IMG/VR virus record: IMGVR_UViG_3300034103_000309
Coordinates: 1-31,268 of that record
Origin: a virus
Strand: one strand, 5' to 3'
Length of the DNA: 31,268 bases
Shown: positions 20,345 to 28,779 of the stretch, piece after piece
Layout: every line of letters starts with the position of its first letter
Numbering within the stretch: the stretch's first letter is position 1
Notes under the pieces: model-generated
What the model was told of the DNA's origin: nothing
The model's input: the letters and a program-made list of their open reading frames with translations, nothing else
The model's database searches: none
Program-made: the position numbers and the translations under genes

Positions 20345-21154
20345 ATGGATTATTACGCTACCCTAGGGATCGTCAAAACAGCAACCCCTGACGAAATCAA
20401 AAAGGCATATCGCAAATTAGCGAGTCAACATCACCCTGACAAGGGCGGCGATACTGCCATGTTTCAAAAAGTTGAAGAAGCATATCGTACTTTGAGTGAC
20501 CCAGAAAAGCGTCAACAGTACGATAACCCTAGTCCGTTCGGACAACACTCAGGTGGATTTGATCCGAACATGTTCACCGGTGATTACGATCCTAGAGATA
20601 TCTTTTCTCATATTTTTGGACAACGATCCGGCAATCCATTTGCAAATCAACGAAACAATCGTCAACTGTTTAGGACTACTGTTGCAGTGACATTGGAAGA
20701 TGCGTATACCGGATCTAATCAAATACTAAAAATACAGACTCCAACTGGACAAAAGGTTATCAATATTGAAGTACCTAAAGGTCTACATGAACAAGCCCAA
20801 GTAAAGTATGATAATGTCATTGACAACGGAACACTATTAGTAGAGTTTAAAATCTTACCCAATTTAAGATTTGAGCGTAGGAATCATGATCTATATTGTA
20901 ATCAAAAAATATCTGTACTTGATTTGATTGCCGGAACAACAATTAACTTTACTACCATTTCAGGGAAAGAGTTTGAGGTTCGAGTCCCTCCCAAAACACA
21001 ACCTTATATGCAACTGAAAATTACAGGTCAAGGTATGCCCATTCAAGGGACTAGTCAGTACGGAGACCAAATACTCTTGCTTAAACCCTATATACCTGAT
21101 ATTATTGACGATGAGATAACTCAAAGTATTTTGCGTTCCAAATCTAAAACTTAA
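20345..21154 (+). CDS. dnaJ: DnaJ/CbpA-like Hsp40 co-chaperone
   Basis: 269 residues. J-domain with the HPD motif at residues 30-32 (DYYATLGIVKTATPDEIKKA..., then QHHPDKGG), a short Gly/Phe region (FGQHSGGFDP; FGQRSGNPF), then two substrate-binding C-terminal domains (VTLEDAYTG...; then DLIAGTTINFTTISG). The zinc-finger domain of type I DnaJ (CxxCxGxG repeats) is absent, so this is a type II, CbpA-like protein, shorter than CbpA (306) at the C-terminal dimerisation end. HPD retention means it can stimulate a host DnaK. It starts a two-gene operon with clpA 7 nt downstream and probably lacks a 5' leader. Confidence 0.93.
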   Translation: MDYYATLGIVKTATPDEIKKAYRKLASQHHPDKGGDTAMFQKVEEAYRTLSDPEKRQQYDNPSPFGQHSGGFDPNMFTGDYDPRDIFSHIFGQRSGNPFANQRNNRQLFRTTVAVTLEDAYTGSNQILKIQTPTGQKVINIEVPKGLHEQAQVKYDNVIDNGTLLVEFKILPNLRFERRNHDLYCNQKISVLDLIAGTTINFTTISGKEFEVRVPPKTQPYMQLKITGQGMPIQGTSQYGDQILLLKPYIPDIIDDEITQSILRSKSKT

Positions 21155-21161
21155 GGAAATT

Positions 21162-23429
21162 ATGAATAATTCACCCGAAATTGAAAGCATTATTGAGCAA
21201 TCAATCACATACGCTAAAGAGCGCAAACACCAATATGTAACAGTTGAGCATTTGCTGTTAGCATTGATTACACACAAACCATTTAAAAAATGTCTGACCA
21301 GTTTTGGTGCAGATGTTGATACTATGGAAGAAGAAGTAGGTGCATATCTCAATGGATTACATGCCATTGAAGGTAAAGATCCGGACATCGTTCCACGCAG
21401 AACCAATAGTCTTGAACGCACAATGAATCGTTCAGTGACTCAAGTACTGTTTACTGGTCGCAGGCAAGTAACTACTATTGACTTGTACTTGTCTATTGCA
21501 AGTGAAGGTAACAGTCATGCACATTACTTTTTGCTAAAGTATGGCATTAATAAAAATGAATTTGTACAACACTGGCAAAAATCTTACAAAGGTCAGGATT
21601 ACAGTACAGGCTTAACTGACAACCAAGCTGATGAAATCTTAGAAGAATATACCACTAACATGACCAAGCTTGCTGAAAGCGGCAAACTTGAACCAGTCAT
21701 TGGTCGCACAAAAGAACTTGAAGACATTATTAATGTCTTGGCAAAGCGATTCAAATCAAATGTATTGATGGTAGGTGACCCAGGTGTTGGTAAGACTGCT
21801 ATCGTTGATGGTCTTGCACAATCTATTATTAACAACGAAGTACCTGACTTCTTGAAGGGTCATGAACTTTACAGTCTTGAAGTTAGTTCATTGCTTGCTG
21901 GATCTAAGTATCGCGGTGACTTTGAAGAAAAAGTAAAACAAGTCATTGAGGCTCTGAACACCAAGAAGAAAGCTATTCTGTTCATTGACGAAGCACACAC
22001 TATGCAAGGTGCAGGCTCTAGTAACAGTGGCGGCCCTGATTTTGCAAACATGATTAAGCCTGCGATTACTAAAGGCACATTGAAAGTCATTGCAAGCACA
22101 ACATGGGAAGAATACTACGAATCATTTGAGAAGGATCGTGCATTGATGCGCCGATTCTATCGCATTGGTATTGATGAACCAAGTCATGATGCAACTATTC
22201 GCATCTTGAGCGGCCTATCAGCCCGATTGAATGACTTCCACGAAGTTAACATCACTGATGAAGCTATCAAAGCAAGTGTTGAAATGGCAACTCGCTATAT
22301 CAACGACCGTAAAAATCCCGACAAGAGTATTGATTTGCTAGATGCCGCATGTGCTAAACAGCGTGTGGCAATGAACGAGGGAGCTATCATTACTAAGGAA
22401 CTAATCTACGAACAAGTAGAGAAATATACAGGTGTTCCTGCTGATAAGTTGAAGGGTGATAATCTGAGTCGTGTTCATACACTTGATGTTAATATCAAGG
22501 GTAAGCTATATGGTCAGGATGAGACCGTTGAGCAAGTGCTTGAGCGTATCTATGTTTCGTTTGCTGGTATCGGCAATGACACTAAGCCTCTAGCAAGTTT
22601 CTTGTTCTTAGGCCCAACGGGTACAGGTAAAACAGAATTGGCTAAGTTGTTGAGTAAGAACCTTGACATGCCATTGCTCAAGTATGATATGAGTGAATAC
22701 AGTGAGAAACATTCAGTATCAAGCTTGATCGGTCCGCCCCCTGGTTATGTTGGCTTCGGTGACAGTCAAGTTGGTGGAGGTCGTTTGATTAATGATTTGA
22801 GTAAGAACCCTCACTCTATCATGTTGTTTGACGAAGTTGAGAAGGCTCATCCTGATATCTTTAACATCTTCTTACAGATGCTTGACGAAGGTACTATCAC
22901 AGGATCTAACGGTAAGAAAGTCAATTGCAAAAATACTATCATTATCTTGACCAGTAACTTAGGTAGTCAAGCAGGTGAGCGTAACAACATTGGCTTCGGT
23001 AGTCAAGAAAAGACAGGTGAAGATGATAAAGCACTGAAGGACTTCTTCAAGCCCGAGTTTAGAAACCGCCTAGACTTAGTATGTAAGTTTGGTAAGCTTG
23101 ACACACTGAGTATCAAGAAAATCGTTATCAAGTTCACAGAAGACCTCAAGAAGTCACTATTGGAAAAACACAATATCAATCTGACTCTTACTGAGGAAGC
23201 TATTGAGCACTTAGCAGAGTCTGGATACGATAGCAAAATGGGAGCAAGACCATTAGCTCGTAAAATCGATGAATTGGTTCGTGTACCACTCTCAAAGAAG
23301 ATTTTGTTTGAGCAAGTAAAAAATGCTACGGTTGCTGTAACTGTTGACAGTGATAAGAAGGTGGTGTTTAACACAGTTACAAAAATGTCTGCAAAGGTGA
23401 ATGACGAGGGTATAATTATTGTTACCTAA
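21162..23429 (+). CDS. clpA: ClpA-like AAA+ unfoldase
   Basis: 755 residues, nearly the length of E. coli ClpA (758). Clp N-domain (residues 1-145, VTVEHLLLALI), first AAA+ module with Walker A GDPGVGKT (from residue 205) and FIDEAH, second AAA+ with Walker A GPTGTGKTE (484-492), pore GYVGFG and LFDEVEKAH. The roughly 125-residue coiled-coil insert of ClpB is missing, which separates it from ClpB disaggregases. In the position of the ClpP-docking loop stands Ile610-Gly611-Phe612 followed by a flexible stretch and FFKPEFRNRLD (E. coli ClpA Ile617-Gly-Leu). It therefore looks able to dock on host ClpP. RBS AAGGA overlaps the dnaJ stop. Confidence 0.93.
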   Translation: MNNSPEIESIIEQSITYAKERKHQYVTVEHLLLALITHKPFKKCLTSFGADVDTMEEEVGAYLNGLHAIEGKDPDIVPRRTNSLERTMNRSVTQVLFTGRRQVTTIDLYLSIASEGNSHAHYFLLKYGINKNEFVQHWQKSYKGQDYSTGLTDNQADEILEEYTTNMTKLAESGKLEPVIGRTKELEDIINVLAKRFKSNVLMVGDPGVGKTAIVDGLAQSIINNEVPDFLKGHELYSLEVSSLLAGSKYRGDFEEKVKQVIEALNTKKKAILFIDEAHTMQGAGSSNSGGPDFANMIKPAITKGTLKVIASTTWEEYYESFEKDRALMRRFYRIGIDEPSHDATIRILSGLSARLNDFHEVNITDEAIKASVEMATRYINDRKNPDKSIDLLDAACAKQRVAMNEGAIITKELIYEQVEKYTGVPADKLKGDNLSRVHTLDVNIKGKLYGQDETVEQVLERIYVSFAGIGNDTKPLASFLFLGPTGTGKTELAKLLSKNLDMPLLKYDMSEYSEKHSVSSLIGPPPGYVGFGDSQVGGGRLINDLSKNPHSIMLFDEVEKAHPDIFNIFLQMLDEGTITGSNGKKVNCKNTIIILTSNLGSQAGERNNIGFGSQEKTGEDDKALKDFFKPEFRNRLDLVCKFGKLDTLSIKKIVIKFTEDLKKSLLEKHNINLTLTEEAIEHLAESGYDSKMGARPLARKIDELVRVPLSKKILFEQVKNATVAVTVDSDKKVVFNTVTKMSAKVNDEGIIIVT

Positions 23430-24030
23430 ATTTACAATTATCAAGGTGGTATCTTTTCATTAAAGAGATACCACCTGTTTGATTGCAATGAGGACATGTA
23501 ATCCTAGTTTGATGGTAACCAATTAAACTCAACGACCGTTTGAAATTGCTTTGCTCCGAATGTGTTTTTCCTAAGTGTAACAGTGATAGCTTTTCTTTTT
23601 GAATTTCTGACATAGGGCCGCGGATTATTCCTGATAATTTTCTACTTATTTTACTTTTGGTTTCTTCTGTTCTTGGCCCGGTCTTTTTGCCTTTTAATTT
23701 TTTTCTGATTTTATCTCTAGTAGGTTGAGATACTATTTTACCGGAGACTCCTTCCCCGCCATCTGTTTTGTTATGCAGTATACCGGTACTCAAATCTACA
23801 CGACCGTACCATCTAATCATTCTTCTTTCGAGTGCAAGTGCCCCTATTTCAGTCAATCTCTGCTCTATCACAATGATACGAGATTTGTCTTTTGGTAAAT
23901 TAATAGTATGGTTAGGATTCCATGCCCTTAAACCTGATCCTTTTCCTATATAATATGGAGTATTATTCTCCCTCATATAGGCATACACATAGAATCCGTC
24001 AAGTGTGTTTGATTTTGAATAAATATTCAT
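23422..24030 (-). CDS. Free-standing GIY-YIG homing endonuclease with NUMOD3 repeats and a C-terminal zinc finger
   Basis: 202 residues on the minus strand, overlapping the clpA end by 8 nt. GIY-YIG core at the N-terminus: FYVYAYMREN, then PYYIGKGSGLRAW, with an ERRMIRWYGR block carrying Glu and Arg, and LHNKTDGGEG. Two NUMOD3-type DNA-binding repeats follow (GKKTGPRTEETKSKIS; GKTHSEQSNFK), then a CPHC-x(16)-C finger (TCPHCNQTGG ... RYHLDNCKF) with a conserved-looking GG and H. Such genes are selfish elements that spread between related phage genomes. RBS GGAGAG lies about 9 nt before the ATG on the minus strand. Confidence 0.88.
   Translation of the reverse strand: MNIYSKSNTLDGFYVYAYMRENNTPYYIGKGSGLRAWNPNHTINLPKDKSRIIVIEQRLTEIGALALERRMIRWYGRVDLSTGILHNKTDGGEGVSGKIVSQPTRDKIRKKLKGKKTGPRTEETKSKISRKLSGIIRGPMSEIQKEKLSLLHLGKTHSEQSNFKRSLSLIGYHQTRITCPHCNQTGGISLMKRYHLDNCKFR
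23445..23475 (+). terminator. Possible weak terminator hairpin after clpA
   Basis: A perfect 10-bp stem (GGTGGTATCT / AGATACCACC) with an 11-nt loop, 15 nt after the clpA stop. No long T run follows on the plus strand, and the same bases encode the zinc-finger end of the minus-strand endonuclease, so the symmetry may have another cause. Confidence 0.35.
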
Positions 24031-26689: not shown

Positions 26690-27558
26690 CAAACGAAGAA
26701 AAAACAGTACCTGTAGAAAAGGTACAAGAAATCGCAGAACAAGCGGCACAAAATCCACCAGAGGTGCCGGCTGCAGGACAAGTTCAAGTTAACGTAGATT
26801 TTTTGCGAACCACCCGAGTTCATATTGCAATGCCGTGTTATGGCGGGATGCTTACTGAATCTACATTCATGAGTTTCATCAAGTGGGCTAACACAGCCCG
26901 TCAACTTGGTATTGATTGGACATTGGAAACAATGGTCAACGAATCATTGATTAGTCGTGCTAGAAATACACTAACTGCAAAGTTCTTGGACATGCCGGAC
27001 GCTACTCACTTGTTCTTTGTTGACGCAGATATTGGCTGGGAACCATGGCATTTATTAGTTCTATTGAATCGTGACGTTGATGTTATCGGTGGTCTATACC
27101 CAATGAAGTCTATGCCAATTAAGTGGGTCGTTAACGGCTTTGAGGGTGCAGAAGAAGGCCCCGATCAACTGCAAGAAGTTAGTAAAGCAGGTACAGGTTT
27201 CTTATTGATGAAGAAGCATGTATTTGAAAAGATGAATAGTCATCCTGCAGTCAAGCAGTACAAGAACGACATTGGTTTAGATCCTAAGTTTGACCAATAT
27301 CTAAAGACTTACTTTGACACAGCAGTTCGACAGAATCGTTACTACAGTGAAGACTGGACATTCTGTGAGAATTGGCGTGATTTAGGTGGTAAGATTTATG
27401 TTGACAAGCGTGTTCTACTACGCCATAGCGGTAGTTATGTATTCTGCCAGGAAAATCAAACTAACCTAATGAACAGTATTGGTCCTATGTATCTTCAAGA
27501 AAGACGCAATCAAGGCTGTACACTAGTTGACAAAGACGGCAACGAAGTTGCACAATAA
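26680..27558 (+). CDS. GT-A-type glycosyltransferase-like protein
   Basis: 292 residues. After an acidic, disordered 40-residue lead comes a GT-A-like fold: VHIAMPCYGGMLTESTFMS (start of the nucleotide-binding strand), SLISRARNTLTAKFLD, then HLFFVDADIGWEPWHL with the DAD metal-binding motif, then DVIGGLYPMKSMPIKW and TGFLLMKKHVFEKM. The C-terminus has YYSEDWTFCENWRDLGGKIYVD, a likely acceptor-side block with an ED pair, and HSGSYVF. Related phage proteins modify virion proteins, DNA or host glycans; the acceptor is unknown. RBS GAGGA. It ends just before a strong terminator. Confidence 0.72.
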   Translation: MSETNEEKTVPVEKVQEIAEQAAQNPPEVPAAGQVQVNVDFLRTTRVHIAMPCYGGMLTESTFMSFIKWANTARQLGIDWTLETMVNESLISRARNTLTAKFLDMPDATHLFFVDADIGWEPWHLLVLLNRDVDVIGGLYPMKSMPIKWVVNGFEGAEEGPDQLQEVSKAGTGFLLMKKHVFEKMNSHPAVKQYKNDIGLDPKFDQYLKTYFDTAVRQNRYYSEDWTFCENWRDLGGKIYVDKRVLLRHSGSYVFCQENQTNLMNSIGPMYLQERRNQGCTLVDKDGNEVAQ

Positions 27559-27560
27559 AC

Positions 27561-27582
27561 AAAGCCCCGAAAGGGGCTTTTT
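27561..27582 (+). terminator. Rho-independent terminator
   Basis: A perfect 8-bp stem AAAGCCCC / GGGGCTTT with a GAAA tetraloop, followed by TT, 2 nt after the glycosyltransferase stop. It isolates pstS from upstream transcription. Confidence 0.92.
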
Positions 27583-27603: not shown

Positions 27604-27621
27604 TTGTCATCGTATTGTCAC
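27604..27621 (+). promoter_or_regulatory. Pho-box-like element upstream of pstS
   Basis: TTGTCAT (27604-27610), 4-nt spacer, TTGTCAC (27615-27621): two 7-nt direct repeats with an 11-bp period, the architecture of PhoB boxes (CTGTCAT-N4-CTGTCAT). Each unit differs from the consensus mainly in its first base. It ends 10 nt before GTAAATAC, the right spacing for a PhoB-activated -10. Confidence 0.6.
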
Positions 27622-27631
27622 AATTCCTGAA

Positions 27632-27639
27632 GTAAATAC
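27632..27639 (+). promoter_or_regulatory. Late-like promoter / -10 element of pstS
   Basis: GTAAATAC, one base off the late consensus ATAAATAC, 31 nt before the pstS ATG. It could act as a phage late promoter, as the -10 of a PhoB-dependent promoter, or both. Confidence 0.5.
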
Positions 27640-27659
27640 TTGTGTAATAAACACACAAG
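27639..27659 (+). promoter_or_regulatory. Leader hairpin covering the pstS Shine-Dalgarno
   Basis: CTTGTGT (27639-27645) pairs perfectly with ACACAAG (27653-27659) around a 7-nt AT-rich loop. The right arm includes the first bases of the AAGGAG ribosome-binding site (27657-27662). A 7-bp stem is weak but may tune translation. Confidence 0.35.
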
Positions 27660-27670
27660 GAGACTATTAC

Positions 27671-28678
27671 ATGAAAAAACTAACAGCATTATTAGGTGCA
27701 TTGTTAATATCAACTGTTGCATTTAGTGCAGACATTACAGGCGCAGGTGCGACCTTCCCTTATCCAATCTATGCCAAGTGGGCCGAAGGCTACAAAAAAG
27801 CTACTGGCACTGGTATGAACTATCAGAGCATCGGATCATCCGGCGGCATTCGTCAAATCAATGCAAAGACCGTTGACTTTGGAGCAACTGACGCGCCAGT
27901 AAGCGGAGAAAACTTAGACAAGATGGGACAAGTTCAATTCCCGGCTATTATCGGTGGAACAGTTCCTGTAATAAACTTAGAAGGATTCAAGCCCGGCGAA
28001 CTACGCATTACTGGACCAGTCATGGCTGAAGTGTTTATGGGCAATATTAATCGTTGGAATGACCCTAAACTAGTAGCACTAAATCCAGGTAAGAATTTGC
28101 CTAATACAGAGATAACTATTGTACACCGTGCTGACGGTTCGGGTACAACATTCAACTGGACAGACTATCTTGCTACAGTGAGCCCAGAGTGGTTACAACG
28201 TGTAGGCCGTGGTGCTGCTGTCAAGTGGCCTGCAGCCACATCAGTAGGTGGCAAAGGCAATGAAGGTGTTGCAGCCAACGTGAACAGAATCAAAGGTTCA
28301 ATTGGTTATGTAGAGTATGCCTATGTTAAGAAAAACAATATGACATTCCTACAGCTACAAAACAAAGCAGGACGATATGTTAGTCCAGATGACTTAACAT
28401 TTGCCGCAGCAGCAGATGGTGCTGATTGGTTTTCAGTTCCAGGTATGGGATTAAGTATTGTGGATCAACGCAACCCTAATGCTTGGCCAGTAAGTTCAGC
28501 AAGTTTTATCATCATGTACAAAGAACCAAAGAACAAAGCCAATAGTGACGAAGTATTAAAGTTCTTTGATTGGGCATTTAAGAACGGCAAGAAAGATGCA
28601 ATTGATTTAGACTATGTGCCATTACCGGACGCACTAACAAAGCAGATCCGTGAACGAGTTTGGACACAGATTAAGTAA
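27671..28678 (+). CDS. pstS: Periplasmic phosphate-binding protein PstS
   Basis: 335 residues. A Sec signal peptide (MKKLTALLGALLISTVAFSA, cut before DITGAG) directs it to the periplasm. Phosphate-binding motifs of the PstS family are complete: GAGATFPYPIY, YQSIGSSGGIRQI, FGATDAP, and VHRADGSGTTFNWTDYL; late blocks GGKGNEGVAANV and SIGYVEYAY also match. Length and all blocks match full-length proteobacterial PstS, so it is likely acquired from the host lineage and functional. It would feed host PstCAB to raise phosphate uptake during infection. AAGGAG RBS 8 nt before the ATG; own promoter, terminators on both sides (monocistronic). Confidence 0.95.
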   Translation: MKKLTALLGALLISTVAFSADITGAGATFPYPIYAKWAEGYKKATGTGMNYQSIGSSGGIRQINAKTVDFGATDAPVSGENLDKMGQVQFPAIIGGTVPVINLEGFKPGELRITGPVMAEVFMGNINRWNDPKLVALNPGKNLPNTEITIVHRADGSGTTFNWTDYLATVSPEWLQRVGRGAAVKWPAATSVGGKGNEGVAANVNRIKGSIGYVEYAYVKKNNMTFLQLQNKAGRYVSPDDLTFAAAADGADWFSVPGMGLSIVDQRNPNAWPVSSASFIIMYKEPKNKANSDEVLKFFDWAFKNGKKDAIDLDYVPLPDALTKQIRERVWTQIK

Positions 28679-28722: not shown

Positions 28723-28745
28723 AAGGGCCGCAAGGCTCTTTTTTT
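28723..28745 (+). terminator. Rho-independent terminator after pstS
   Basis: AAGGGCC / GGCTCTT stem (7 bp with one G-T pair), GCAA tetraloop, then a 7-T run. A small extra hairpin (CGTAC/GTACG, 28683-28700) precedes it. Confidence 0.88.
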
Positions 28746-28771
28746 ATTGCTTTTTAGTAAGTCGATATTTG

Positions 28772-28779
28772 ATAAATAC
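28772..28779 (+). promoter_or_regulatory. T4-type late promoter that fixes the start of the next gene
   Basis: ATAAATAC, 6 nt before the ATG at 28786. A TTG at 28747 lies upstream of this promoter and inside the terminator's downstream flank, so it is not the real start. Confidence 0.75.

Follow-up and report, generated by a model that had tools for sequence, protein, structure and literature searches.

A putative composite promoter pairing a Pho box with a late-type -10 element upstream of pstS in a virus record and its T4-like relatives

Introduction

At promoters without a -35 element, PhoB contacts region 4 of sigma70 (PMC4496699). In the late RNA polymerase of phage T4, gp33 is bound at the beta flap, and the clamp forms a ring around the upstream DNA (PMC7892883, PMC2988020). 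The late promoter of Aeromonas phage Aeh1 indicated that positions -13/-12 can vary (PMC2988020). Control of cyanophage phosphorus genes by a host regulator, PhoBR, was already known, as a preliminary description of the present locus had noted for pstS, and predicted phage Pho boxes failed in earlier tests (PMC10976474). Phosphate starvation induces the phospholipase PlcP, whose gene clusters contain Pho boxes (PMC4796936). Here we describe a phage pstS promoter in which a PhoB-type site stands at a fixed distance from a late-type -10 element.

Results

The virus record and its pstS gene

The window, that is, the whole stretch of 31,268 bases analysed here, is a virus record encoding a T4-type clamp loader, an endolysin, a collagen-like tail fibre, DnaJ and a ClpA-like ATPase. 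It is a genome fragment, and no late sigma gene was found in it. The DnaJ and ClpA-like ATPase genes are adjacent (20345-23429), and a homing-endonuclease-like gene lies on the minus strand at 23422-24030. The pstS gene (27671-28678, plus strand, as are all features described below) encodes a full-length phosphate-binding protein of 335 aa with a signal-like N-terminus, which scored above the cut-off of the NCBIfam PstS models and also matched PHROG 5385. The nearest cellular relatives of this PstS were Limnohabitans and other Burkholderiales (72-79%), and for this reason the host of the virus is probably a freshwater member of the Burkholderiales. A cyanophage origin was ruled out, since cyanophage PstS proteins reached at most 39% among the matches listed. 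pstS forms a single-gene unit with a terminator-like hairpin on either side. The upstream hairpin with its T run (27561..27582) belongs to the preceding gene, which ends at 27558, and insulates the unit; the downstream one (GGGCC-GCAA-GGCTC-T7, 28724..28746) was read by eye.

Parts and register of the promoter

The preliminary description had reported TTGTCAT-N4-TTGTCAC with an 11-bp period in front of pstS, and this was confirmed at 27604-27621: the Pho box TTGTCAT-CGTA-TTGTCAC (TTGTCATCGTATTGTCAC) consists of two 7-mer half-sites and occupies -40..-23 in the inferred register, i.e., the place of a -35 element. It is followed by a spacer of 11 nt, AATTCCTGAAG (27622-27632), whose length is invariant and whose last base, G, is position 11. 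The late-type -10, GTAAATAC, covers 27632-27639 with the core TAAATA at 27633-27638 and T(-7) at 27637, in the T4 register of PMC2988020. The distance of 10 nt given earlier thus holds for the G of GTAAATAC and not for TAAATA, which starts after 11. Transcription is predicted from the register to start at 27644, and a Shine-Dalgarno sequence (AAGGAG) follows at 27657-27662. As an internal comparison, the next gene has an ordinary late-type promoter, GATAAATAC (28771..28779), without a Pho box.

The base before TAAATA in the window is G rather than A, as in 19 of the 57 ordinary late sites of the relatives. Read in the host register the -10 becomes GTAAAT; because T(-12) and A(-11) are missing, use of the window's own copy by host sigma70 is doubtful on its sequence, and the element looks late rather than sigma70-like. 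G stands at position 11, and TG is out of register. An inverted repeat, TTGTGT/ACACAA, was observed just 5' of the pstS Shine-Dalgarno sequence (27640-27659; -7.5 kcal/mol, z -2.35). Since the predicted start falls inside it, the reading as an RNA hairpin of the pstS leader was set aside; straddling the start, the repeat may have a function at the DNA level or none.

Taken by itself, the window gave modest evidence, for a single composite was found at up to 3 mismatches against 0.26 expected from shuffles. Neither TATAAATA nor TAAATAC was more frequent in the window than expected by chance, and the same held for matches to an E. coli-type Pho pattern with 3 mismatches. With the parts singly at chance level, relatives were needed.

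Late-type character of the TAAATA core

Upstream of genes bearing a Shine-Dalgarno sequence in non-redundant relatives, TAAATA occurred 57 times in sense and 15 times in antisense orientation; the base preceding the sense copies was A in 21, G in 19, T in 13 and C in 4. TAAATA is the phages' own predicted promoter core, and GTAAATAC of the window matches this style. A gp55-type late sigma is encoded in a close relative, G003 (pstS 90%, clamp loader 78%), which has the same promoter and a portal gene, as well as in other relatives. These sigma factors are about 300 aa long, and region 4 was not detectable in them. Of the 19 composite-bearing contigs with a length of 170 kb or more, 14 carried the T4 portal and/or a gp55-type sigma; neither was found in the remaining 5 of 19, records whose incompleteness means that absence proves little. 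By comparison, neither portal nor gp55-type sigma turned up in the 10 contigs whose -10 is of host type, a contrast that is only suggestive because most of these 10 are short.

Viral and host pstS promoters

We collected 81 viral pstS loci (80 relatives plus the window's own) by protein similarity only, ignoring the promoter. Box-N11-TAAATA was present in 77 of them, representing 43 distinct 35-mers, and was missing in four; no other box-TAAATA spacing from 5 to 17 was found in the 81 loci. In 40 distinct phage promoters (38 aligned by script and 2 mis-boxed ones by eye) TAAATA stood at offset 11 after the box, and TAnAnT was found at the host position, offset 10, in none of the 40. A Pho box of the same kind was present in the host pstS promoters (70 distinct, Burkholderiales), where TAnAnT stood at offset 10 in 68/70 and TAAATA in 0/70. 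A(-11), near-invariant in the host set, was lost in the phage promoters. Since T(-7) lies 16 bp after the box in phage and host alike (the T4 TATA box spans -13..-6, PMC2988020), the host -10 appears to have been swapped for a late -10 with no change in how far PhoB lies from the start. The composite thus has the half-sites with 11-bp period and the fixed box-to-start distance of a PhoB-activated promoter, and lacks its sigma70 TAnAnT -10; it has the TATAAATA-like -10 with core TAAATA of a T4-type late promoter, and carries a conserved sequence, the Pho box at -40..-23, where that type has none at -35.

These comparisons bear on the simplest alternative, a plain host-type Pho promoter in which TAAATA would be an AT-rich sigma70 -10 and not a late element. 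The box and its distance are indeed as in host promoters. However, TAAATA never occurred in the latter, which keep TAnAnT one base earlier (68/70), it is the promoter core that the phages appear to use themselves, and the mostly short contigs with a host-type -10 gave no T4 markers (0/10). We regard this alternative as improbable. A screen of 300 Burkholderiales genomes did not find the composite, and this is a weak control because many host first half-sites are TTGACAC, the matching host-type pattern being found in just 2/60. The direct alignment of the 70 host with the 40 phage promoters is the better host control.

Spacing and downstream genes in IMG/VR

When 5-17 nt were allowed between box and core in an IMG/VR scan (13 spacings), spacing 11 accounted for 62/81 readable matches among the matches listed (binomial p ~3e-52, which assumes independence, and related contigs are not independent). 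A scan with CTGT as the first half-site gave 79 matches at spacing 11 and 0 at spacing 14. The composite was present in all 31 records tested with 1 mismatch allowed, and the reversed pattern in 0/31. Among 179 distinct composite sites, 88 preceded pstS, 55 a PlcP/LpxH-like metallophosphoesterase gene and 8 a PiT-like membrane protein gene, the rest standing before others; several contigs held 2 or 3 sites within a few kb. The genes behind the composite are non-homologous, and most are phosphate-related.

This recurrence also concerns the view that the Pho box at a late promoter is a relic of the captured host gene, or that PhoB blocks the late RNA polymerase there. In favour of this view, the late core is complete, and PhoB sitting at -40..-23 could get in the way of the clamp. 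However, a relic would be expected to drift, yet half-sites and phase were kept in 77/81 loci; the composite arose before other genes too; and its phase is the same as in activated host promoters. We consider this view very improbable, more so than a plain host-type promoter.

The metallophosphoesterase gene was found behind the composite in L188, L203, L201, L230 and others, in some cases on a contig that also carries pstS. Its product is related to LpxH, with a score below the LpxH cut-off, and no good Pho box was found at its host homologue (46-50% identical). Because the name plcP would rest on this sub-threshold score and the Pho box, with a host homologue lacking a good box, we use it as a lead; phage-driven breakdown of membrane phospholipids under phosphate starvation is possible. 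In L186 and L190 the composite precedes a gene for a membrane protein with two ND/HD motifs, which we tentatively label PiT-like by these motifs; searches of Pfam, PHROGs, NCBIfam and PDB returned no match for it. An unknown protein starting MRFEDLAVRLVAVEAKLA is encoded behind the composite in L322, L323, L328, L337, L346 and L384, and its gene is a candidate for a new phosphate-responsive phage gene. A host-type Pho promoter, box-N10-TATATT, was observed before a dCMP-deaminase-like gene in L395, L408, L418 and L419, with the PiT-like gene next in 3 of these 4.

Discussion

The preliminary description had proposed a PhoB-type site merged with a late-type -10, and our results bore this out as one fixed geometry shared by many phages and several genes. 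Judged from its sequence, the composite is a genuine, selected promoter module that puts a host PhoB site at the position where a -35 is absent from T4 late promoters. We think it probable, with some reserve, that the phages evolved it as a promoter through which PhoB and the late programme both act on pstS. Phosphorylated host PhoB would bind -40..-23 in place of a -35 element and would activate RNA polymerase at a -10 recast from host TAnAnT to late TAAATA, the PhoB-to-start distance being kept. Phosphate starvation of the cell would then increase pstS expression, and the gene would in addition form part of the late programme of the gp55-type sigma, both inputs meeting at one start site. Against this stand the failure of earlier predicted phage Pho boxes in tests (PMC10976474) and the absence of a late sigma gene from the window fragment. 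This explanation holds two narrower readings within it, and our confidences in them therefore overlap with that in the whole.

In the stricter of these, one -10 would be used twice: by PhoB and host sigma70 early in starved cells, and by the gp55-type RNA polymerase late and independently of PhoB. T at position 11 (sigma70 -12) was enriched, with 33/44 pstS clusters against 13/57 ordinary late sites (p 2.5e-7). At positions 8-9, TG, an extended -10 in the sigma70 register, tracks T11 both at pstS (p 0.012) and at other genes (p 0.011). The TGnTTAAATA of many relatives thus hints at use by both polymerases, and use by host sigma70 is more likely there than at the window copy. A -10 shared by sigma70 and gp55 was also proposed for psbA (PMC5931967). 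However, A(-11) was lost, TAnAnT was absent from the host position in all 40 phage promoters, and the window copy has G11 with TG out of register. We hold strict dual use to be plausible, at somewhat less than an even chance.

The window copy looks more like the second reading, a phosphate-gated late promoter at which PhoB acts on the late polymerase and replaces the -35 contact, perhaps via a gp33-like factor or the beta flap. It is consistent with the conservation of the full late core where the sigma70 bases, including A(-11), were not conserved, with the invariant phase of the box, and with T4 late promoters being otherwise without -35 conservation (PMC2988020). However, no contact of PhoB with gp55 or gp33 is known, and in T4 the flap is held by gp33 and the upstream DNA surrounded by the clamp (PMC7892883). 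PhoB activates through region 4 of sigma70, which the gp55-type sigma lacks, and this leaves the mechanism of any PhoB effect on the late polymerase hypothetical. We put this reading forward tentatively, as less probable than strict dual use.

A wider and equally tentative proposal is a viral Pho regulon, in which many T4-like phages would have put pstS, the PlcP/LpxH-like phosphoesterase gene and others behind a late promoter with a PhoB site as its -35, the host stress regulator directly activating the late polymerase. T4 late promoters are described as lacking a -35 element, and the segment of sigma touched by PhoB is missing from gp55. A conserved late promoter carrying a precisely phased site for a host activator would therefore be a new promoter format. 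It makes testable whether a host two-component regulator drives a phage late polymerase or shares a -10 with it. Box-N11-TAAATA can also serve as a search key for candidate phosphorus genes in uncultured phages, unannotated ones included.

Comparison with known systems

The phosphorus genes of cyanophages (P-SSM2 pstS, S-PM2d) are under the host phosphate regulator PhoBR. However, their boxes are of the cyanobacterial type, and the composite was found at none of nine cyanophage pstS genes, which sit close behind a DUF680-type gene. The preliminary description had regarded a dual-use -10 as new. A precedent for a shared -10 was proposed with the cyanomyovirus psbA motif, in which one motif would hold the sigma70 -10 and the gp55 site (PMC5931967), as in strict dual use. 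The psbA motif has no activator box in fixed phase and concerns another gene and another signal. A search of the openly accessible literature gave no report of a late -10 with a Pho box in phase.

T4 late promoters, served by gp55, gp33 and gp45, have the same TAAATA core at -11..-6, and relatives carrying the composite encode a gp55-type sigma and a T4 portal. Unlike the composite with its conserved activator site, they have no -35 element, and the window copy differs from them in that -13/-12 is not TA. The PhoB-dependent pstS promoters of Proteobacteria (70 from Burkholderiales) share with the composite the half-sites of 11-bp period and the distance from the box to the -7 T, whereas they have TAnAnT at offset 10 in place of TAAATA at offset 11. 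The composite may thus be seen as a variation on known kinds of promoter; what is surprising is that it stands before several different genes.
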